In this document: positions 39,984 to 62,325 of the stretch, in pieces
Layout: each line of letters opens with the position of its first letter
Position numbering within the stretch: the first letter of the stretch is position 1
Assembly: GCA_951799405.1 (NCBI GenBank)
Contig: OX637344.1
Span: 1,798,001 to 1,862,000 of the forward strand
DNA length: 64,000 bases
Reading direction: 5' to 3'
Source of the DNA: Agapetus fuscipes
Lineage: Eukaryota; Arthropoda; Insecta; Trichoptera; Glossosomatidae
Position numbers and translations under genes: made by a program
The notes under the pieces: generated by a model
Told to the model about the DNA's origin: nothing
Seen by the model: the letters and a program-made list of their open reading frames with translations, nothing else
Databases searched by the model: none

Positions 39984-42900
39984 ATGAAGAGGCTATGGAG
40001 GAGTCAAAAAATTTTGGCCTTGGTCCAACCACCCGAAATGTCTCGGGAGGACGACGTGTTTACGCGTGGAGACGTGGAGGATGCTGGTGACTGTGACAGC
40101 AATAAGGTTAGTATTATACAGTGTTATTCCATAAATAACTTTCTACATAGTAGCTATCAGTCGGACAATATGACCACCATAATCCCTATTCAATAAAATA
40201 TACATTATTGTTTTAGCCACGCGAAGAGGTCTTCAAATACAATGAAAATATAAACCCACGTTGGAATATGGTCGGAAATGAAACTTATCGAGATGATTCT
40301 GAAGTAAGGTCTTATCTAATGCAAATATTTTAGTGAAAGTCATTACTTAACTGTCTAACTTTGTTTTAATTTTTCAGAAACTGAAGGAAAAAGCTAAATT
40401 AAAATCACTGTCTGATTCCCCTCAAAAGTGGCGTGAATTGGAGCTAGGAGCAAGAGATCGTGTAAGTTGTTTTAACATTATCTCACTAAAATATAATAAC
40501 AAAAAATAGTGTTCCATGATTACTTACTTCAATAAAATTTCAGGATCCTCAACTACTAAGTTCAGTTGAAACTGTCAATTTGGTAAGCCAATCACTACAA
40601 GTCACTGGATTAAAAACAAATCTTGTACCAGACTATGACAGTGATGGTTTTTCGTATGAAAATGATGTGGACAATACTAAAGAAATTGAAGAAAAAATAA
40701 CCAAATCAAGACGAATATCTTCTTCTTCGAGTTCATCAAGCTCGTCTTTCTCATCTGATAGCTCAACATCTACAGGACATACTAACGGACACACTCGAGA
40801 GAGCAGCGAACTACAAATTGACTTGGCTTCTTCAATAGCACCCACGGCTCCTGAATTAGAAGAACATGCAACGGAAAAAAACACAATGCAAAACAATGGC
40901 AAATCTGATGTAATTACTTTATGTTTTAAAAATAATTTAAAAAAATCTTTCTTTAACTATAAAATGAACATTTAATTAATAATTGTTTATTTTTTAGACT
41001 TCAACAGCTGAGAGTAGCAAACGAACACGGAGACCTTGTGCAATGAATGTCCCAATCACAACTTCACCTATATTCACTGATGAGAGTGACATAGACGATG
41101 ATATGGACGATCCTACATTCAGCCTTGAAGACAAATTTATTAACACTTATGAACAAAGAAAAACAAATTTTCTATTTCCATCAAACTTGGATTCCTCAAG
41201 CTCTGATAACGATATATCAAACCAGGACATACAAAACAGAGGTCGTAAACGGTTAAGAAATCCTGCGAAATGGAAACAAAATAGAACAAAAAGGATGCGA
41301 AACGAAGGACGAGCTTATGTGTCTATGTCCAAAACTAGCAAACATACTGTTAAGGCCGCTCGTTGCCTCAAGACTCCATGTACCGACAAGTGCAGATTGA
41401 AATGTTCAGAAAAATTCGATACCCAAGGAAGATACAAAATATTTAATCATTTTTGGAAATTGGGGAATTTAGATAAGCAAAGAGCATTCATAAGGAGTTG
41501 CATGGTTGATGTAAAACCCAAATACAAATACACCAATGCTAAAACTCCCAGACGTGCTAATAAAGCTTTCTACTTGACTCTGGATAAAAACAAAACTAGA
41601 GTATGCAAACAATTTTTCAAAAGCACCTTGGACATCACCAACAGAATTATTCACACAGTGGTGACAAAAACAGATGAAATGGGCGACTTGTCGGAAGACA
41701 AACGCGGAAAACATGGTCACAATAAAGTATTGAATTCTGAATTGGTAGCCGACATAAAAAAGCACATCGAATCTATTCCTAGACTAGAATCACACTATAT
41801 TAGAGCTCAAACCACAAGGGAGTATATATGTGGAGATAAGACTATTAAAGATCTCTACAAAGACTTTACAGGGTTGCAAACTCTAAGTAGTAAAGAAGTT
41901 GGCAACTACTTTACCTACTACAAAATTTTTACGGAAGAATTTAATTTACATTTTCACCAGCCGAAAAAAGACCAATGTGACCTGTGCTGTTCTTATGCTT
42001 ATTTATTTGGTGATCAAAAACAACAAATGGAAGAAAAATATCTAAAGCACATTAAAGAAAAAGAATTATCTAGGAAAGAAAAATTGACTGACAGGACTAA
42101 TGCAAGTAAAGACAATAAAGTCGTAATTTACGACTTACAAGCCGTCTTGCAATGCCCCAGAGGAGAATCCTCGGCATTTTATTACAAATCTAAAATAAAT
42201 AGTTTCAATTTAACTGTAACTGAACTCCTAAATAAGGATGACAAACATGCTTACGACAACGTACATTGTTACTTTTGGACAGAGACAGATGCGAAGCGAG
42301 GAGCTATTGAAATTGCATCATGTATATGGCAGTATTTAAAGAGTGTAAGTTGTGAAGAAGGATCTGAAAAAAACATAATTTTTTATTCTGACAACTGTTG
42401 TGGTCAGAATAAAAATAAGTTTATCTCATCTTTATACATGTATGCGGTATACTTATTAAATATTAACAGTATAACGCATAAATTCCTAATTCGAGGCCAC
42501 ACTCAGAACGAAGCCGATAGTGTGCACAGCCTCATAGAAAAAGAGGTAAAAAAAAAATTTAAATCTGGCCCAATATACACCCCAGACCAGTATATTACGC
42601 TAATCAAAAGCGCAAAAAAGAGAAGCCCTCCCATTAATGTCCACGAATTAACTTATAGCTCATTTTTAAACTTCAAAGAGCTGCAGGAGGATTGGGGGTA
42701 TAATTTTAATACCAACACCAAGGGGGAAAGTGTTCACTGGAATGACATTAAACATCTGAAGATTAATAAACAAGATCCGTTCACTTTCTGTTATAAAACA
42801 TCGTACGAGAATGAAGACTATAAAGAAGTGAACGTGAGAAATAAGAGAAAAAAAATGAAACCCCTGTCAGATATTGTGCTTTCAAAAGCATATACTGAGA

Positions 42901-43004
42901 AACAACAACTGATCGCCAATAAACAGAAGGATTTAAAGGAGCTTATTACCAAAGGGTTAATTCCAGAGTATTACTCATCTTTTTACAATTCTATACTCAA
43001 TTAA
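39984..43004 (+). CDS. Spliced transposase of the Sola-like element
   Basis: Five exons, all joined in phase 0: 39,984-40,106, 40,217-40,303, 40,378-40,461, 40,544-40,909 and 40,998-43,004. The introns are GT-AG with T-rich acceptors. The product is about 888 residues. The N-terminal third is acidic with a long Ser run. Cysteine groups (CLKTPCTDKCRLKC; DQCDLCC) look zinc-binding. The catalytic half has VIYDLQ (D about 599), FYSDNCCGQNKN (D about 685) and RGHTQNEADSVHSLIE (D about 727, E about 734), the expected carboxylates of an RNase H-fold DDE/DDD enzyme, and matches proteins I know as DUF7869-type. A possible 5' untranslated intron spans 39,604-39,945. An alternative start is Met 19. All frames are open, so it may be active. 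Confidence 0.75.
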
Positions 43005-50302: not shown

Positions 50303-50552
50303 TGATGATGATAATGATGATGATGATGTCTCCATCCTGCCGGGCTTGTAGACCATGTTCAATAATTGTAGGCTGCTTTATTATTATTTTTTTCTTTTTG
50401 TAAGGCTGCTACGTTTCGTCAGTGACGTACGACTGACTTCTTGAGTGAATTGAATTACAAAAAGAAAAAAAAAAGAATAAAGCAGCCTTCATTTATTGAA
50501 CATGGTCTACAAGCCCGGAAGGATGGAGACATCATCATTATCATCATCATCA
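50303..50552. mobile_element. Foldback element, about 100-bp arms, beside the LTR element
   Basis: Arms 50,303-50,402 and 50,455-50,552 match inversely, including a (GAT)n start, GGGCTTGTAGACCATGTTCA and a T-rich end. The loop contains GTCAGTGACGTACGACTGAC. It ends 23 bp before the 5' LTR. Confidence 0.75.
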
Positions 50553-50575
50553 ATTTATTCAATATTTAAATGTAT

Positions 50576-51048
50576 TGTTATGTAAATATAAATATTGAAA
50601 TAAGTATGGGTAGTTATAGTTATAAGAGTCCTCATAGGTATAGGTAGGTAGGATCGATAATTGTGTATAAGTGTAGAATTCTCTAGGCTAAGTAGGTACT
50701 TGTTATAATTATAGGAATACTGTATTGCATTGGTAGGTAGGATTTTGGTTGTGTCTAGGTAGTACGTGAAACATCGAGAAGTAATAATTACTCTGGAACC
50801 GTCTGGCGACTTTAGTTCTGGATCATACTGCTCTGAAGAGTATAAAGGTGCGAATGGCCTGCAGAGCGGGCAGTATCATAGCGACTTACAAACACATCGA
50901 AGCCATCTGATCAGTGAACCGAAACCAAGTAGAATAATCGAGAAAGTAGTGTGAAAATAAATATTGTAACAGTGTAAAATAAATAAGTTTTAAAGGAGAC
51001 CTGTGTATTTTTAATTTGGAAAGACAATTGAACCCTAATTTCGTAACA
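50576..51048 (+). repeat. 5' LTR
   Basis: Starts TGTTATGTAAATATAAATA and ends CCTAATTTCGTAACA. It contains a TATAAAG box at 50,841-50,847 and two AATAAA signals near 50,956 and 50,978, the promoter and polyadenylation signals expected of an LTR. Confidence 0.9.
50841..50847 (+). promoter_or_regulatory. Candidate LTR TATA box
   Basis: TATAAAG about 110 nt upstream of the first AATAAA, a plausible U3/R arrangement. The duplicate lies in the 3' LTR. Confidence 0.45.
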
Positions 51049-51050
51049 AT

Positions 51051-51068
51051 TGGCGTCAGGTGCGGAAT
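51051..51068 (+). promoter_or_regulatory. Primer-binding site of the LTR element
   Basis: TGGCGTCAGGTGCGGAAT begins 2 nt after the LTR. TGG followed by a YGTCAG-like run best resembles the 3' end of a leucine tRNA, though the match is imperfect and another tRNA is possible. Confidence 0.55.
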
Positions 51069-51701
51069 TGTCAAGAAAAATTAAGATCTTCTGTCTAAAA
51101 ATAAATAAAATAAATTAAATAAGTGTTAAAATGAACTTTATTCAAATTGAACTTTGTGTGAACTGACTTTTGTGAAAACAAGTGTTTAAATAAATTTTTG
51201 TTAAAAGAAAAGACGCAAAAAGCAAGTTCAAAAAAAAATTCTGGAACATCCTAAAACATAATGACTATTTTACCGCATTGAGAAAGTCATCAAATTGGAC
51301 CATAGTTTTTTTTATTATTGTGTGTGATTAAAAAAAAATAAAATAAATAAATAAAAATCTTGAAAAATATTACAAAAGAACGTTCCAGATTCATCGAGAA
51401 AAAGTTTTTGAATAGCTGTCCTTCGTTTACAAATGTGTGAATGTACATTAAGTACCTACCTGTGTGTTTGAAAGACTTGAGACGAAATAAATGATTATGT
51501 ACTATCAGACATTATTATGTTAAAAATATTGGTGAATTAAAAATAAATATTAAAAGACAGTACCTACCAATCAGTGTAATCAGAAAAAAAATATTATTTT
51601 TGCTAAAGTACGTATTCAAAACAGCTATATATATAAAACTCAAAACTTGTATTAAATAAATTTGAAAATATTTTTGTTTTGACGTAAATTTTGAAAAAAA
51701 A

Positions 51702-54071
51702 ATGGCAACTAAAGTGAACGTCAAGGACCTCAAAGTCACTGAGCTTAAAAATGAGCTTCTGGAGAGGGACCTGGAGACCTCAGGAGGAAAGGCAGCCTTA
51801 CAAGCACGCCTCATAGAGGCCTTGGAACAATCAGGCGAAGACCCGGCATATTTTGTCATGGCGTCTGGAGGGGACCGCGCCTTGGACGAGCTAAATATCA
51901 GCATCACAAAGTCCATGAAGGAGGAGCTAACCAGCAACCTGACAGGACTGAAGACTGAGATGGCTGACAACGCCAAGACCCTGAAGGAGGACCTGACCGG
52001 GCTGGAGGAGAAGATGGCTGACAACGCCAAGACCCTGCAGGAGAACCTGACGGACCTGAAAGTGGAGATGGCTGAAAACGCCAAGGCCCTGCAGGAAGAC
52101 CTCGCCAACATGAAAGAGAAGATGAACGAGAATCTCACAACCCTGAAGGGAGAAATGGAGGAGAAGATGACAGCCCTGAAGGGGGAAATGGAGACTCGGA
52201 TGTCAAATCTGGAGGTACATCTGCGTGCCGAGCTGGCCGACAAGGGCCAGATGGAGTCCACCAGAATATCCCCCAAAGGCCTTCACGACGAGACCGACCA
52301 GGGATGCTCAACTCCAACCAGGGTCACTAGAGGGGATGACGACCCTTCGCTGTCGAAGCACAACCTTCCGACCTTCGACGGGAAGACGTCGTGGGAGGAG
52401 TATTTGACCCTCTTTGAGACGGCTGCCATGATGGGAGCCTGGAGCCAGCAGAAGAAGGCTTCGGTTCTCAGCCTGTCGCTCCGAGGAGACGCTCTCAGGG
52501 TTCTGCAGGCCATACCCCTGGACAACCGTGGTGACTTTGGGCAGCTGAAGCAGCGCTTGGATATGCGCTATGGCCACAAGTGCCTGGGGCAGCTGTACAA
52601 GTCACAGCTGAACACAAGGGTGCAGAAGCCCAACGAGAGCCTCCAGGAGTTTGAGATGGACATCGTCCACCTAGTACGAGACGCTTACCCGACATTCCTT
52701 GATGACATCTGCGAGAGCTTGGCAGTGGACAAGTTCCTGAACGGATTGAGAGAATGGGAGACGCAGCAAGCAGTGAAGCTGGCTCTTCCGAAGACGATGA
52801 ACGAGGCACTGACCAAAGCGATGGAGTTTGAGGCTGTCAAACAATCGATAAGAAGCCACGTCAGAGTATGCGCGATGAAAGTGCAAGAAACCAAGCCACT
52901 GACGACGGAGGAAATAATAGAAAAAGTGCTGCAGCAACTTGAGCCAACGAGACAGGGGGCGCACTGCTGGACGTGTGGCCAGCAAGGACACCTGAGCGCT
53001 AGGTGCCCAAAGTCTCAAGGACCGGAGAAATTGGAAGACGACCGCAAGGATGTAGAGACCACCATGAAGATGAACAAACGGCTGAGGAAACTGCAAGTTC
53101 AGCTCCAGGATGCCGAGAGAAAGGTCAAAGTCATGGAGACGGAGAACAGGCAGCTGACGAAGAACTTGGCCAGCAGTGAAAGGGTCCGGCGAACAGCGGA
53201 GGCCGAGAGGGACGAGTTGCACGAGACTGTGATGAGCCTGGAGAGACAGAACAAGGGGCTTAGGACTAAGCTCCAGCAGCTGGAGACTGGGCAGGTGCCC
53301 AGGGCAAAGGACACGATTGCCAACCTGGAGTCCAAGATCAGCAACAACAATGAGGCGGGTGCTCGCATGAAGGATAACCACCGGCCAACTCAAAGAGCAA
53401 AGTGGTCAAACAATGACCAGCCCGCCCAGAGAGTACAAAAATGCGTCGCATCCAAAGAAGCGCCCCTGTTTGAGACGTTCTGGAGCAAGGTGCAAGAGGG
53501 ACAGAAGATTCGCCATGGGGTGACCACAGAAGTCCACAAGGACTTATTTGAGGTCACTAGGGACCACACACTGGCATGCAGTGTACCGGAAGATCTAGAT
53601 ATGTCTAGAGGAATCGCACGGGTCTTCCGATACAAATTCGGAGAACCGCAACCCTCGAGCAGCCCGCAAGGAAGAGCTCTGAGACTACCGAAGGGGCGTC
53701 AACAAGCATACTGCCTGGTTGTCCCGGATTCCAGCAACCTGGAAGAGGACTACAAGGCATTGTGGGACGGCCTTGTTGAGCTGCGTGACTACATGTTGGA
53801 GGATCAGCAGGCGCGTCTGGCAATACCGAAGATGGGTGGCGGCCGCGCTAATCGAGACTGGCGGATAATCCGGAGTATGATTGAAGCAGTGTTCTCGGGA
53901 GTCGGCATCAGCGTCATGGTGTGCTGCGAGCAAGCGCAGCCGAGAGCCAGTGGGGAGAAATCCGTGGACTGCCACTTCTTCCTGACCACAGGGTGTCGAC
54001 GTGGATCAGCATGCCCCTACCTACACAGAGTCAAGACTGTTCCGGGACGAAACAGTCTAGGTGGGGGGTAG
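51702..54071 (+). CDS. Gag-like polyprotein: SAP, Gag core, CCHC, macro domain, CCCH
   Basis: 789 residues, start AAAATGG. In order: SAP-type helix-extension-helix at 10-41; coiled coil with 18-residue repeats at about 70-180; Gag capsid-like core from LPTFDG (223) to about 383; zinc knuckle C422-C425-H430-C435; coiled coil at about 440-545; macro domain at about 598-742; CCCH finger C757-C765-C771-H775. The macro part has HKDLFEV (612-618), EDLDMSRGIA, FRYKFG, IPKMGGGR (708-715) and ends VMVCC, the strand order of TARG1/OARD1-like ADP-ribose hydrolases. Aligned from memory, the catalytic Lys and Asp of TARG1 are not conserved, so binding without hydrolysis is plausible. SAP and zinc fingers suggest nucleic-acid binding. 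By eye the frame is much GC-richer than its LTRs. The stop codon touches the 3' LTR. Confidence 0.85.
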   Translation: MATKVNVKDLKVTELKNELLERDLETSGGKAALQARLIEALEQSGEDPAYFVMASGGDRALDELNISITKSMKEELTSNLTGLKTEMADNAKTLKEDLTGLEEKMADNAKTLQENLTDLKVEMAENAKALQEDLANMKEKMNENLTTLKGEMEEKMTALKGEMETRMSNLEVHLRAELADKGQMESTRISPKGLHDETDQGCSTPTRVTRGDDDPSLSKHNLPTFDGKTSWEEYLTLFETAAMMGAWSQQKKASVLSLSLRGDALRVLQAIPLDNRGDFGQLKQRLDMRYGHKCLGQLYKSQLNTRVQKPNESLQEFEMDIVHLVRDAYPTFLDDICESLAVDKFLNGLREWETQQAVKLALPKTMNEALTKAMEFEAVKQSIRSHVRVCAMKVQETKPLTTEEIIEKVLQQLEPTRQGAHCWTCGQQGHLSARCPKSQGPEKLEDDRKDVETTMKMNKRLRKLQVQLQDAERKVKVMETENRQLTKNLASSERVRRTAEAERDELHETVMSLERQNKGLRTKLQQLETGQVPRAKDTIANLESKISNNNEAGARMKDNHRPTQRAKWSNNDQPAQRVQKCVASKEAPLFETFWSKVQEGQKIRHGVTTEVHKDLFEVTRDHTLACSVPEDLDMSRGIARVFRYKFGEPQPSSSPQGRALRLPKGRQQAYCLVVPDSSNLEEDYKALWDGLVELRDYMLEDQQARLAIPKMGGGRANRDWRIIRSMIEAVFSGVGISVMVCCEQAQPRASGEKSVDCHFFLTTGCRRGSACPYLHRVKTVPGRNSLGGG
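51957..52160 (+). repeat. 54-bp tandem repeat inside the gag-like frame
   Basis: Three near-identical units at 51,957-52,010, 52,011-52,064 and 52,065-52,118, plus a decayed fourth. Each encodes 18 residues of the EMADNAKTLKEDLTGLEE type, extending the coiled coil by five turns per unit. Confidence 0.8.
54060..54071 (+). promoter_or_regulatory. Polypurine tract overlapping the stop codon
   Basis: GGTGGGGGGTAG lies directly before the 3' LTR. The G-run codes for the last three glycines, and TAG is both the stop codon and the last three internal bases. The frame therefore fills the element to its last base. Confidence 0.6.
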
Positions 54072-54544
54072 TGTTATGTAAATATAAATATTGAAATAAG
54101 TATGGGTAGTTATAGTTATAAGAGTCCTCATAGGTATAGGTAGGTAGGATCGATAATTGTGTATAAGTGTAGAATTCTCTAGGCTAAGTAGGTACTTGTT
54201 ATAATTATAGGAATACTGTATTGCATTGGTAGGTAGGATTTTGGTTGTGTCTAGGTAGTACGTGAAACATCGAGAAGTAATAATTACTCTGGAACCGTCT
54301 GGCGACTTTAGTTCTGGATCATACTGCTCTGAAGAGTATAAAGGTGCGAATGGCCTGCAGAGCGGGCAGTATCATAGCGACTTACAAACACATCGAAGCC
54401 ATCTGATCAGTGAACCGAAACCAAGTAGAATAATCGAGAAAGTAGTGTGAAAATAAATATTGTAACAGTGTAAAATAAATAAGTTTTAAAGGAGACCTGT
54501 GTATTTTTAATTTGGAAAGACAATTGAACCCTAATTTCGTAACA
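54072..54544 (+). repeat. 3' LTR
   Basis: 473 bp, the same as the 5' LTR in every base I compared, followed by the GTAT duplication. Confidence 0.9.
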
Positions 54545-54660
54545 GTATATAATCAAATATCAATAATCAAAAACTGCCTCGGCTAAGTGACGTCACTCTT
54601 AGCAAATAAAAAAATGGATTCATGATTAACAGGATTTTTCTAGTAAACAGCATAGAAACC

Positions 54661-58189: not shown

Positions 58190-58310
58190 TTGTGCAAAGA
58201 AAGAAAGAAGATGTGAAACTAAAGGTACAAAAAAAAAAAAATGTGTTGAGATGGCTTGGGCCTGTGGAAAGAATGGATGATGAGAGACCGACAAAATGCG
58301 GATACCTACA
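58190..58310 (+). pseudogene. RTE-like LINE scrap at the LINE insertion point
   Basis: It encodes LRWLGPVERMDDERPTK, the RTE-type C-terminal motif, and ends where the poly(A) of the minus-strand LINE begins. Confidence 0.6.
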
Positions 58311-61188
58311 TACTATTTTTTTTTTTTTTAAATGTATAGAATCCCGTGGAGAAAATATCAACCTCCAGCTTGTTCGCCTCCCTGGGCAGTCGCTGAAAAG
58401 GCGAGTAATACTGGTAGTTCACGGCACAGTCTGCCACATCAAAAGTATCCACGTTACGCGTGTTCCTTATTGGGACACGGAAATTAATTTTTGATAGGAG
58501 TTGGGGCGCGTCGGTCAAGCCATTAATGAGTTTGTATAGAAAAACCATGTCAGCAGCACTTCTCCGAGCCGAGAGCGGTGCAAGTTTATACGATTCTCGG
58601 AGTTGGTTATAATTGATATCCGAGATGGGTATTCCGAGTTTGAAGTTGATAAAGCGAAGTAGTTTGTTTTGTACCTTTTCTATACTACGTATATGTACCT
58701 GGTAGTGAGGAGACCACAACACGGAGTTATACTCCAGCAATGGCCTCACCAAACTTGTAAAAATATAAATAAAGGTGTGCACGTTATAAAATTTTTCACA
58801 CAGTCGTAAGGAAAATCCTAATGTTCTGAGTGCCCTACCCACAGTTGCCTTTATGTGTGGTACAAATGTTAATCCCGCGTCCAACAATACTCCCAAATCT
58901 TTGATTTGCGCAACCGACATAAGCTGTGTACCATCAATCGAGTAAGGGTACACCGTGGGATTCTTAATTTTGTGGAAACGCATTACTTGACATTTTTCTA
59001 TGTTTAAAGTTAAATCATTCTTCACACACCAGTCATAAAGCACGTCAATATTTCTTTGTAATATCTCGCAGTCACCAATACAGTTAACCACTCTGTAAAT
59101 TTTCAAGTCATCAGCAAACATGACAAATCTCACCCCGTCAAACCCGCTCAGGAGATCATTGACAAATATATTAAACAAAATGGGTCCGAGATGTGAGCCC
59201 TGCGGCACACCGCTCTTCGCCAAAAAAGGAGATGAAACAACGCCCGACACACAAACCCTAAGTTCCCTTTCAGCAAGATAGCTCGAAAACCACGCAAGGA
59301 GTGCACCATCAATACCAAGAGAAAGAAGCTTTGCCAACAATATTGTATGGGAGACGCGGTCAAACGCCTTGGAGTAGTCTGTATATACACAGTCCGTCTG
59401 ACTCCTGGTAACAAAAGCATCCATGATATCACAATGAAATTCCAAAAGGTTTGTCAAGGTCGATCGGTTTTGCATAAAACCATGCTGTTGGTCCGATATA
59501 ACGAGTGCTAAGTCACTCTTAATCTTACTGAGAAGAATACATTCGAACAACTTCGGTATGCAGGATTGTATACATATTGGGCGATAGCTAGTGACATCAG
59601 ATTTATCTCCCTTTTTGAAAATTGGAATAATGTTGCTAGATTTCCAAGCTGTTGGAAAAATTCCCGATTCAATAGATTTATTAAATATTTTTTGTAAAAT
59701 CCAACACATAACATTTGAACAATTCTTAATAAAAACAGGCGGCAGTTGATCAGGACCTGCAGATTTATTAGTATCCAGCGAATCAATACCACGCTGCACG
59801 TCCGACACGGAAAATATCACACGCGCGATATGAACTCGATCAGTCAGCGGGAGCGCCGGAGTGTTGACACCCATGAGAACGTCCTCGTAGATTGACAGGA
59901 AATATTTTCTAAATAAGTCCACTACATCACTCACGCTATTGGCAGACCTGTCATTGAAATACATTATTTTCGGGTAATCGCTATGATCGTCTTTTAAAGA
60001 TTTGGCAAGTTTATACAAATTCACGGAGGTTCCTGGTAACTGACTCTCTATGTTTCTATAAAATTCACGTTTTAGCGCTGCTGAAAGCACCTGGCACTCC
60101 TTTCTTACCCTACTGAATGCTTCGTAGTCACTGGGGTCCCCAGTTGCCTTATACTGGGCATGCAATCTTTTTTTCAAACTAATCTTATCAACAAGTTCGC
60201 GTGTGAACCATTTGGGGTAGTTCCCCCATGGTGGCCGTTTGATAGGCACAAAATCGTGAACGGAACTATTTATAACGTTGTAAAATTGTGACACAATTTC
60301 ATTTACGTCGGTATTTGTATCAAGGAAAGACCAATCAACCTCATTAAGATGGTTATTTATGACGTCGTAGTCACAAGTTTTGAAGTTTTTTGTAATTCTT
60401 TTCGGCAAGGACTCCCTTTCATAATTCACAATAAAATCTATCTCTAATGGGGGGTGATGGGCATCAGCCGGCAGGATGATCTCCGCGGCTGTGGAAACAT
60501 TAAGACCATCAATATCTGTAAATATTAAGTCCAGTAATCGGTTTAAACTGTTACGTACCAGATTACACTGAACCAAACCAAGGAACGAGGACATGTTTTT
60601 AATTTCGGCGGTACACTCATCGTCTATCACCGCATTGGCCTCACACTCACACCATTTGGCACCCGGCAAATTGTAGTCCCCAGCAACCAAGATTTTAGCG
60701 TCTGGATATTTAAAACGGATTCTTTCCATATCTTTACAATGATTGGAGTAGGATTCAGAGTCTGAACCTGGCGGAATATATACGCAAGCCACAATTAAAA
60801 TTCCAATCGGGAGAATGATTTTAACAAATATTTGCTCCAATGAAGTGTTCAGACATTTTATTATACAGGACCTGAACCTTTTGGCAACGCAGATCATAAC
60901 ACCTCCTCCCCTGGACTTGCCACTATCTTTACGATCACGATCTCTCCTATACACACAGTAACGGTCAAAACCAAGCTCTCCGTCACGCACACCTTCATTC
61001 AACCAGGTTTCTGTAAAAAACAATATATCATATGAAGTTAAAGATGCACTAATAGATAATTCAGATAGTTTTGTGTTTACTCCACGGACGTTCTGATAGT
61101 AGGCAGTTGCGCCGATTCTCCTGGTAAGTTTTTTCGGAGCTTTACAATCTTTGGAATTGAATCGAAAAATTTCACCGTCAGCTCCTCC
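58306..61188 (-). CDS. LINE ORF2: endonuclease and reverse transcriptase
   Basis: 960 open codons. The first ATG-less segment overlaps ORF1 in the -1 frame. APE-type endonuclease motifs come first: YYQNVRG (about 61,101 down), FFTETW, GDYNLPG and ADAHHPPLEID. Reverse transcriptase follows: YRPICIQSCIPKLFE, DYSKAFDRVSH (59,359-59,379), SGVPQGSHLGPILFN and FADDLKIY (the two catalytic Asp codons at 59,107-59,112), then LNIEKC and the usual C-terminal region. Family membership is the Jockey/CR1 superfamily; I cannot fix the clade. No in-frame ATG precedes the endonuclease, so it is probably expressed by frameshifting or re-initiation. The last residues (KKKKNSM) and the stop codon come from poly(A) and flanking DNA. 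Confidence 0.8.
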   Translation of the reverse strand, partial: GGADGEIFRFNSKDCKAPKKLTRRIGATAYYQNVRGVNTKLSELSISASLTSYDILFFTETWLNEGVRDGELGFDRYCVYRRDRDRKDSGKSRGGGVMICVAKRFRSCIIKCLNTSLEQIFVKIILPIGILIVACVYIPPGSDSESYSNHCKDMERIRFKYPDAKILVAGDYNLPGAKWCECEANAVIDDECTAEIKNMSSFLGLVQCNLVRNSLNRLLDLIFTDIDGLNVSTAAEIILPADAHHPPLEIDFIVNYERESLPKRITKNFKTCDYDVINNHLNEVDWSFLDTNTDVNEIVSQFYNVINSSVHDFVPIKRPPWGNYPKWFTRELVDKISLKKRLHAQYKATGDPSDYEAFSRVRKECQVLSAALKREFYRNIESQLPGTSVNLYKLAKSLKDDHSDYPKIMYFNDRSANSVSDVVDLFRKYFLSIYEDVLMGVNTPALPLTDRVHIARVIFSVSDVQRGIDSLDTNKSAGPDQLPPVFIKNCSNVMCWILQKIFNKSIESGIFPTAWKSSNIIPIFKKGDKSDVTSYRPICIQSCIPKLFECILLSKIKSDLALVISDQQHGFMQNRSTLTNLLEFHCDIMDAFVTRSQTDCVYTDYSKAFDRVSHTILLAKLLSLGIDGALLAWFSSYLAERELRVCVSGVVSSPFLAKSGVPQGSHLGPILFNIFVNDLLSGFDGVRFVMFADDLKIYRVVNCIGDCEILQRNIDVLYDWCVKNDLTLNIEKCQVMRFHKIKNPTVYPYSIDGTQLMSVAQIKDLGVLLDAGLTFVPHIKATVGRALRTLGFSLRLCEKFYNVHTFIYIFTSLVRPLLEYNSVLWSPHYQVHIRSIEKVQNKLLRFINFKLGIPISDINYNQLRESYKLAPLSARRSAADMVFLYKLINGLTDAPQLLSKINFRVPIRNTRNVDTFDVADCAVNYQYYSPFQRLPREANKLEVDIFSTGFYTFKKKKNSM

Positions 61189-61823
61189 TCACCAGCCATT
61201 CGCCTCTCCTCGACTTCATTCCATAGACCCCGTAGATGTTCCCTCTGTGAGACAGTCAGATCAGCTTTAGCTCGCACACCATCGCCAAGAAGCCTATTAT
61301 TACGCAGCACATATCTGGCCTCCGAAGAATCAGCAAAGGAAACTTTAACAGGCCTTACTTTGTCAGCCGCCACTCTTCCAACTCTGGATACCTTGATACA
61401 ATCCGTTTTGACTTCATCGAACTTACTGACGATATTCATGACAGTGTTGCGGTCATCATTCAGTCGCTGCACCTGGGTAGTGGCCGCGCTTTCTGGAATA
61501 TTCATCAACATTACATTCTTAGATTTTTCACGTCGTTCCTCGAGTTCGCTAATCGCATCAAAGATAGAATTATGCTTTGAGTCCTCCGACTCGCCCATTG
61601 AAATGGGCTTACTCTTGAATGTCTGCAATTCCCCTTCCATTTTGCCGGTTAAAACTCCAATCAGGGACATCGTTCTTGCCAGTCCCGCCGTCGTGGGTAG
61701 CAATTTAGAAGTCAACTCCTTAACTGCCTTCACTGCAGAATTATTGCCATTTATTAGCGCCAGTTGCATGGTATTCAAAAGGTTTGATGCCTCCGTTATT
61801 AGTTGAACAACGTTTGATTCCAT
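61077..61823 (-). CDS. LINE ORF1: nucleic-acid-binding protein
   Basis: 248 residues. The N-terminal half is helical and likely a coiled coil, ending in ISELEERREKSK. The middle (about 98-175) has NVMLMNIPES, VSRVGR and RPVKVSFADSSEARYVL. This resembles the RRM-like plus C-terminal domain of L1-type ORF1 proteins, and the region with LTVSQREHLRGLWNEVEERR fits the C-terminal domain. It would coat the LINE RNA. It overlaps ORF2 by 112 nt and ends TAA at 61,077. Confidence 0.7.
   Translation of the reverse strand: MESNVVQLITEASNLLNTMQLALINGNNSAVKAVKELTSKLLPTTAGLARTMSLIGVLTGKMEGELQTFKSKPISMGESEDSKHNSIFDAISELEERREKSKNVMLMNIPESAATTQVQRLNDDRNTVMNIVSKFDEVKTDCIKVSRVGRVAADKVRPVKVSFADSSEARYVLRNNRLLGDGVRAKADLTVSQREHLRGLWNEVEERRMAGEEELTVKFFDSIPKIVKLRKNLPGESAQLPTIRTSVE
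61128..61134 (-). promoter_or_regulatory. Candidate -1 frameshift heptamer
   Basis: On the minus strand ORF1 reads CGA AAA AAC, so A AAA AAC stands in the zero frame as a canonical slippery heptamer. A -1 slip enters the ORF2 frame just before the endonuclease start. ORF1 would otherwise stop 51 nt later. Confidence 0.6.
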
Positions 61824-61844
61824 TGTTAAAAATCGTTGGACAAG

Positions 61845-62325
61845 AGGAAAAAAAAGAAGTTGTAATTATAATATATATTTTTTTTCTCACGGGTTATTTA
61901 AGTTTTATATTATTTAAGTATAATATTATTGTTTTATGTCACAGGTACAATTTATTTGATTATTGTGTTTATTTTTATTTATCCCAATTGCAGTGACAGC
62001 CCTGCTACAAAGTATTCAGCAATAATATAAGCAATTATGTTTATTGGCTGCAATTTATTGGACAGATTTGCAAAAATAGTCCTTATTGATATTACAAGCG
62101 ATGAAACATTTATTTTTAATTTGAAAAAAAAACACATAAGCAGCAGTCAGAGAGAACCGCGAACAATTTGTGATAAAAAATTGAGTTAGCTTTACACTGT
62201 AAACACCAATACACTTCACGCAATTCAGTTATTACAGATATTTATAATTATTTATTAGCAAGCAAAAATTTGGAGTGCACTACTTATGATATTATGATAT
62301 TAATCAAACATATTCAGTTCAATTC
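61845..62325. other. AT-rich stretch without a recognised feature
   Basis: Nothing beyond A/T tracts. It may include part of the LINE 5' untranslated region. Confidence 0.4.

Follow-up and report, generated by a model that had tools for sequence, protein, structure and literature searches.

A Gag-only LTR retrotransposon of Agapetus fuscipes as a derivative of a Ty3/Gypsy family with a TARG1-type macro domain in Pol

Analysis of a 64,000-nucleotide stretch of the Agapetus fuscipes genome (the window) identified an LTR element that encodes a macro domain and no enzymes, and that is almost certainly a non-autonomous derivative of an element carrying this domain in Pol. In the derivative, ~3.6 kb of the enzyme region of a 7.3-kb Ty3/Gypsy element has been swapped for a fragment of host myosin, and this replacement brought Gag and the Pol tail into one frame. 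What is new is the macro domain in Pol. The best explanation overall, which we hold with moderate confidence, is an internal-replacement derivative of a Pol-macro Ty3/Gypsy family whose tail would act as an accessory reader on the integrase.

The window copy lies on the forward strand between two GTAT target-site duplications (50572..50575, by direct reading, and 54545..54548), and its 5' LTR (50576..51048; 473 bp, TGTTATG...CGTAACA) and 3' LTR (54072..54544) are identical at 473/473 bp, as a preliminary description made from the sequence alone had noticed. Just inside the 5' LTR is a primer-binding-site-like TGGCGTCAGGTGCGG (51051..51065) with the same sequence in the full-length relative L062, and before the 3' LTR is a polypurine-tract-like AGGTGGGGGGTAG (54059..54071), the same in the related locus L061, inside which the stop codon of the coding frame falls. 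That frame, 789 aa long (51702..54071), is the single protein of the preliminary description and runs from Gag through the myosin fragment to the Pol tail; Pfam and the frame list showed no protease, reverse transcriptase, RNase H or integrase in the window copy.

Along the frame, in the order SAP, coiled coil, Gag core, CCHC, macro and CCCH, we located a SAP domain (51720..51827; PF02037, E 1.8e-8), tandem repeats with units of 54 nt and 33 nt that code for coiled coil (51936..52193), a Gag capsid core of approximate limits (52329..52946) and a CCHC zinc knuckle (52965..53012; PF00098, E 1.6e-3, slightly below cut-off). The Pfam profile PF03732 (Retrotrans_gag) had no match in the window copy's own frame; it did match in L062 (E 2.5e-6), where the knuckle also scored better (PF00098, E 1.7e-5). 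The proposed SAP-Gag-CCHC architecture is upheld. The Pol-derived tail (53413..54071) consists of a linker, a TARG1-type macro domain (53526..53921) and a CCCH zinc finger of the form C-x7-C-x5-C-x3-H (53958..54026; PF00642, E 1.1e-3, slightly below cut-off), and shares 99.7% identity across 659 bp with the terminal part of Pol in L061.

An autonomous partner with pol, which the preliminary description had proposed to look for, was found in the same genome as a 1422-aa Pol frame. Pfam analysis of L061 Pol detected gag-asp_proteas (1.3e-11), RVT_1 (4.3e-38), RNase H, Integrase_H2C2 (1.2e-18), rve and Integrase_p58_C (4.5e-13); the macro tail follows these, in the order protease-RT-RNaseH-integrase-macro-CCCH. 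The full-length copy G000:C33 spans 7299 bp by coordinates, with an ATAT duplication and LTRs that do not differ across 472 compared bases; sampling of this class covered one 5' end and five tails. Compared with the full-length relative, the window copy is 94.5% similar in its LTRs, 92% in its 5' UTR and 86% in gag. Genome-wide pattern searches allowing up to 3 mismatches found 663 sites with the integrase tail and 224 with the derivative junction, with 0 matches for the reversed-pattern controls, and among scored matches 107/150 integrase tails lay in 1422-aa frames and 135/150 macro matches in frames of 700-850 aa. A pol frame is thus routine in the family that had been read as an independent Gag-only one, and the supposed capture of the macro domain by Gag is replaced by a secondary fusion through enzyme loss, macro and CCCH already being the Pol C-terminus.

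Both LTRs were complete within the locus in 22 of the 30 fetched copies, and 21 of these 22 had perfect 4-bp duplications, the exception being L009. In six copies a 44-bp tandem duplication opens the LTRs, and the target duplications agree once the boundary includes it.

The repeated coiled coil of the preliminary description is present, but the second one (~residues 460-531) had gone unrecognised as a fragment of host myosin II mRNA. This segment (53081..53294) matched exons of the myosin gene G000:C13 by blastn (82% over 101 bp, 85% over 34 bp and 81% over 62 bp), and Pfam Myosin_tail_1 scored E 3.8e-9, slightly below cut-off. It comprises parts of three exons and spans one exon-exon junction at which the intron is missing; homology to the host gene and the absent intron point to a spliced myosin II transcript, which the derivative very probably captured as mRNA. 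The C13 exon is nearest in PDB to non-muscle and smooth myosin II, and a muscle-myosin origin was rejected because the DNA matches went to the C13 gene. The portion of the C9 gene that was searched (L073) gave no blastn match to the second coiled coil at E 1e-3 and tblastn matches of at best 25% identity. A piece of host cytoskeletal mRNA thus joins Gag to the Pol tail without breaking the frame, in an element successful enough to occupy 224 sites.

The two classes also exchange sequence, as indicated by two loci. L061 resembles full-length copies until the end of integrase and then continues with ~140 bp of derivative-type linker, and the L062 gag core differs by 1.3% from that of derivative L026, compared with a median of 6.7% among 30 derivatives. 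The common LTRs, primer-binding site, polypurine tract and target site, together with the recombinant, suggest that the derivative is probably mobilised in trans by full-length enzymes. Within the derivative family, Gag core pN/pS was 0.144 (27 intact copies), a value to which exchange with full-length gags could contribute. The tail showed little sign of selection among sequences too alike to measure it: for the macro domain pS was 0.010 and pN/pS 0.27 (single-copy changes N6/S4), and for the CCCH finger and end pN/pS was 1.75 (N5/S1). Dating from macro divergence within the family was dropped, since the 3' half is homogenised.

That the macro segment of the window copy has a macro fold is close to certain. 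A phmmer comparison to PDB returned TARG1-type domains (E 7e-10), upholding the TARG1-like domain first suggested, and Foldseek, proposed earlier as a check, matched models of modest confidence to the TARG1 fold (E 6.6e-9); TARG1/OARD1 (C6orf130) is closest in both solved structure and sequence. Macro domains also occur in RNA viruses, as solved examples among the PDB matches attest, and the VIA list concerns the macro part alone and rules out no other family. A DarG profile of NCBIfam matched weakly (E 2e-4), well short of its cut-off. Against the protein database, residues 560-789 yielded 0/384 candidates at E 0.001, with candidate lengths tracking the whole protein, and the macro piece alone (161 aa) found one relative among 33 candidates, P0002, which comes from a 996-bp ENA contig.

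The catalytic pair of TARG1 comprises Lys84 and Asp125. Their equivalents are P and A in the window family and R and A in a second family of the same genome (family B), which shares the integrase-macro-CCCH tail; because both residues are replaced, the TARG1 mechanism is unavailable in the copies read from these two families. A K84A mutant of TARG1 does not rescue, according to PMC8501950; text on K84 or D125 was looked for and absent in PMC7237415, PMC7139919 and PMC8003356.

The same integrase-macro-CCCH tail was found in three beetle species, and two further families have a TARG1-like macro directly before integrase. One of these, family A, places it between RNase H and integrase and retains both Lys and Asp. 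The pair is likewise retained in 7/7 aligned outside relatives (four beetle sequences from three species, and three contigs) and in a TARG1-like genomic exon of this genome, and is lost in both of its tail families. Family B and the window macro share 51% of residues, with dN 0.44 and dS 2.5, near saturation. The CCCH motif is retained in most aligned relatives, P0012 being without it. A Pfam Macro search of the genome (8 matches, 9 candidates scored) recovered TARG1-like exons, family A and other macro genes, the window family being missing from these, and the family B macro, run against viral_contigs, gave 7 pattern matches and 0 relatives. In a macro tree of 13 sequences, family A groups with the TARG1-like exon (support 0.86), apart from most tail macros and with P0004 as neighbour (0.85); given a short domain and long branches, one or two captures are both compatible with this tree.

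Taken together, these findings suggest a young Ty3/Gypsy family whose Pol ends, behind integrase, in a TARG1-type macro domain and CCCH finger. The replacement of enzymes by myosin is evident from anatomy, and its presumed route is a template switch while reverse transcription was under way. The derivative can make a Gag-coiled-coil-macro-CCCH protein, and the enzymes of the full-length element probably copy it in trans. The tail would be an accessory module on the integrase, in the place of the chromodomain of chromoviruses. Its ancestor could have both bound and removed ADP-ribose, and the two tail families of this genome, with the pair gone, most likely only bind it, which would anchor the integration complex, or the particle, at chromatin or nucleic acid bearing ADP-ribose. 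Judged from fold, position and the lost pair, this reader or tether function is possible though below even, and loss of the Lys84/Asp125 equivalents could equally mark a decaying domain. A wider scenario is more tentative still: TARG1-like macros would have been recruited into insect Ty3/Gypsy Pol at two places, one eraser-turned-reader lineage would guide integration towards chromatin that is ADP-ribosylated (damage- or PARP-marked), and the derivative would have placed the reader on Gag.

Alternatively, and less probably, the tail may strip host-placed ADP-ribose from element cDNA or proteins as counter-defence, through an enzyme active now or until recently. TARG1 takes ADP-ribose off glutamate/aspartate and off thymidine in DNA (PMC8501950), and the retained pair of family A and the seven outside relatives is consistent with such a role. 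Against it, the replacements of K by P or R and of D by A deprive the window-family and family B copies that were read of the TARG1 mechanism. Somewhat more doubtful is a functionless remnant, its dead pocket a spacer or RNA-binding surface, or retained through overlap of the Pol 3' end with the polypurine tract. The lost pair, zinc-finger scores slightly below cut-off, the stop codon within the tract and the lack of measurable constraint inside the derivative family all fit a remnant, whereas families B and D share half of their tail residues despite near-saturated silent sites, and in both the MSRG and GGG loops are conserved, as is the CCCH motif. An independent Gag-only element whose Gag took the domain directly from a host gene fits the enzyme-free window copy and is otherwise highly improbable, given the 99.7% match with the terminal part of a 1422-aa Pol frame, the similarity of LTRs, 5' UTR and gag to the full-length relative, the 663 integrase-tail sites and the integrase-macro order in beetles.

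Non-autonomous LTR elements of the Gag-only kind, among them TR-GAG, a name used in plant papers, consist of LTRs and one Gag frame with no enzymes. The derivative fits this type in its Gag frame and in LTRs related to an autonomous partner, and differs in that its Gag continues, without a break in frame, into a host myosin fragment and a Pol-derived tail. Unlike TARG1/OARD1, the domain is here fused to integrase or Gag, and the window family is without catalytic Lys and Asp. As far as the literature matches listed show, the macro segment is not a domain already on record as routine for Gag or Pol, and no report of a macro domain built into Ty3/Gypsy Pol was among them. Fish Epsilon-like endogenous retroviruses, LTR retroelements too, have ORFs with a macro domain (Basta et al. 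2009, as cited by PMC4977317); theirs are described as additional frames in vertebrate retroviruses, whereas ours is a Pol tail in insect Ty3/Gypsy. Host sequence within LTR elements is also seen in crocodilian ERVs with captured KIT-ligand or nectin3 sequence, for which PMC4299795 states that capture usually comes at the expense of the element's own genes, and in maize Bs1 (PMC7264820), but here the captured piece links Gag in frame to the Pol tail. Retrotransposon use of ADP-ribose marks, for defence evasion or integration-site choice, becomes testable because natural domain pairs exist, with catalytic residues present (beetle, family A) or lost (window family, family B). Chromoviruses are Ty3/Gypsy elements whose integrase carries a C-terminal chromodomain (PMC3605345), and the present Pol likewise carries a chromatin-type module behind integrase. 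The module here is macro plus CCCH, no chromodomain being detected in four L061 Pol pieces (Pfam, E 0.01) or the window tail (E 10); if the reader interpretation is true, the macro tail would be the counterpart of the chromodomain for integration targeting.

The LTR element of the preliminary description, with SAP, coiled coil, Gag, CCHC, macro domain and CCCH finger in a single reading frame, was present in the sequence in every part. The element (50576-54544, + strand) has LTRs identical over 473 bases and GTAT at both flanks, and its single frame (51702-54071) encodes 789 residues. Pfam detected SAP at 1.8e-8. Three further matches fell just below their cut-offs: CCHC at 1.6e-3, CCCH at 1.1e-3 and a coiled coil resembling a myosin tail at 3.8e-9. 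Just upstream, at 50306-50552, lies an inverted repeat whose two 98-nt arms are 93% complementary, with 51 nt between them. Elsewhere in the window are a 668-aa frame with DUF7869 (40998-43004, + strand; Pfam E 1.2e-11), possibly another mobile-element protein, and a LINE-like pair (58306-61865, - strand) made up of a 960-aa frame that encodes reverse transcriptase (E 3.7e-31) and one of 262 aa with no Pfam match.

Searching the Agapetus fuscipes genome (618 Mb in 148 contigs) showed that the macro domain is repeated: the 150 copies scored among 1055 candidates were all 98-99% identical and stop-free, and one, on contig C33, lay within a 1422-aa frame. This full-length copy measures 7299 bp, with an ATAT duplication and LTRs without difference over the 472 bases compared. 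Its gag frame is 458 aa counted from the ATG, and Pol follows downstream in the -1 frame by coordinates, running through aspartic protease, RT, RNase H, integrase zinc finger, core and p58 C-terminal domain into a macro and CCCH tail as in the window copy. A search with the integrase end placed 107 of 150 scored matches (from 1061 candidates) in frames of exactly 1422 aa, and whole-genome pattern counts, allowing up to 3 mismatches, gave 663 integrase tails and 224 derivative junctions; the reversed control patterns matched nowhere. Thus, the macro domain is part of Pol, and the window copy is a derivative that has lost the enzymes. Four of the 150 scored matches had Pol frames of 1834-1861 aa, longer than the standard 1422, which would fit Gag and Pol sharing one frame in these copies (C5:10653372, C1:24370214, C2:12625913 and C2:23018913).

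Between CCHC and the Pol tail, the window element encodes a coiled coil of ~130 residues whose DNA aligns with three exons of a myosin II heavy-chain gene of the host (C13:6.39-6.41 Mb), with identities of 82% (101 bp), 85% (34 bp) and 81% (62 bp). The closest PDB match of the C13 exon is non-muscle myosin-10, followed by smooth-muscle myosin-11 and myosin-9. The element reads straight through one exon-exon boundary that in the host gene is interrupted by an intron longer than 600 bp, flanked by a GT donor and an AG acceptor. Sequence comparison thus indicates that the in-frame linker from Gag to the Pol tail is a shortened fragment of spliced myosin mRNA.

Derivative copies are young, and parts have been exchanged between derivative and full-length copies. 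Among the 30 derivatives fetched, 27 have an uninterrupted frame of over 740 aa that starts with MATK and reaches the usual end; the others are L027 and L029 (shorter) and L030 (open but with a different start, and excluded). LTR pairs were identical in 13 of the 22 copies with both LTRs complete and differed by one or two substitutions in 9; all but one of these 22 (L009) had perfect 4-bp duplications, every one NTAN (GTAT and ATAT 8 each, ATAC 2, GTAG, ATAG and TTAT 1 each). Across the 27 frames silent divergence declines along the sequence: Gag core 0.150, myosin part 0.037, macro domain 0.010, end piece 0.002. The pN/pS ratios are 0.144 (Gag core), 0.49 (SAP and coiled-coil part) and 0.46 (myosin part); those of the macro domain (0.27) and end piece (1.75) both rest on very few changes. 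In the full-length C33 copy, the Pol piece (L061) has an integrase end of the ordinary full-length type followed by ~140 bp of derivative-type linker, and the gag core differs by 1.3% from that of derivative L026, against a median of 6.7% among derivatives. This mixture fits full-length and derivative RNAs having been copied within the same particles, which supports, but does not prove, mobilisation of the derivative in trans. Derivative and full-length copies alike include some whose LTR starts with a 44-bp tandem duplication at its 5' end (L008, L017, L022, L028, L029, L030 and L061/L062).

A protein search with the integrase end plus macro domain gave 21 matches at E <=0.001 among 408 candidates, including proteins named for the beetles Molorchus minor, Exocentrus adspersus and Callosobruchus maculatus and three further contig-derived matches (P0003, P0004 and P0012). 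All 12 that were read have an integrase end and then at least a partial macro domain, which is incomplete in P0016 and P0017; P0016 lacks the Asp-bearing stretch. Seven (P0003 to P0007, P0011 and P0012) entered the residue comparison and tree, leaving out P0016 and the apparent near copies of P0007 (P0009, P0010, P0013 and P0017). Pfam on four of these proteins found the integrase p58 C-terminal domain in all four and, below cut-off, Macro in three and the CCCH finger in four. The Molorchus minor gene models P0010, P0013 and P0017 join Gag, some with protease, to the integrase tail and macro domain without RT; they reflect either annotation errors or further derivatives with internal deletions of a similar kind.

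Within the A. fuscipes genome, a family A macro query gave 98 matches among 150 scored: 9 of family A, 54 of family B (assigned by identity and position), 9 of family C, 3 TARG1-like exons and 23 weaker matches, the majority of which resemble the window family in range and frame length. Families A and C are further Gypsy families with a TARG1-like macro domain. Reading a single copy each of families A, B and C revealed two arrangements: macro and CCCH behind the integrase, or macro ahead of the integrase. Family B (L076) has the window layout; family A (L063, C1:26556500-26558700) runs RNase H, macro, integrase, with frames broken in the copy read; and family C (L077, C31:9651900-9652250), read at the macro end only, has an integrase zinc finger directly after (4.3e-21). 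The TARG1-like exon, taken for the host gene, occurs in three similar places (L064, L065 and L066, on C52 and twice on C31), and one of these contigs may be a haplotype duplicate. Stronger Pfam Macro matches at C7:18649444-18651198 and C8:5951517 (E 3e-11 and 2e-10) are probably host macro genes.

The catalytic Lys84 of TARG1, a macro protein that removes ADP-ribose, has Asp125 as its partner. One report states that TARG1 activity depends on Lys84 (PMC8501950). Alignment shows Lys and Asp conserved in family A, in the TARG1-like genomic exon and in the seven other tails; these positions are replaced by Arg and Ala in family B and by Pro and Ala in the window family. Because these two tail families group together in the macro tree (support 0.99), the simplest reading is that the catalytic pair was lost on their common stem.

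A literature search, with subscription journals and preprints mostly outside its scope, yielded, among the matches listed, no paper describing a macro domain within the Pol of Ty3/Gypsy elements. In GenBank/UniRef, beetle copies are labelled, for example, Macro domain-containing or C3H1-type protein; such sequences are public, though as far as we have seen undiscussed in the literature. Fish endogenous retroviruses with macro domains are mentioned in PMC4977317. The anatomy is established from sequence. For its function we tentatively propose, at short of an even chance, that the tail is a reader or holder. We take it to be an accessory to the integration complex, whose ancestral catalytic form could have cleared cDNA, chromatin or capsid proteins of ADP-ribose; in A. 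fuscipes the tail would more likely read ADP-ribose and, with the CCCH finger, hold nucleic acid or marked chromatin. In the derivative this module sits on Gag. Rival views take the tail as an eraser, removing ADP-ribose, or as a remnant. A known system offers a positional parallel: chromoviruses have a chromodomain where the Pol of the window family carries its macro and CCCH tail.
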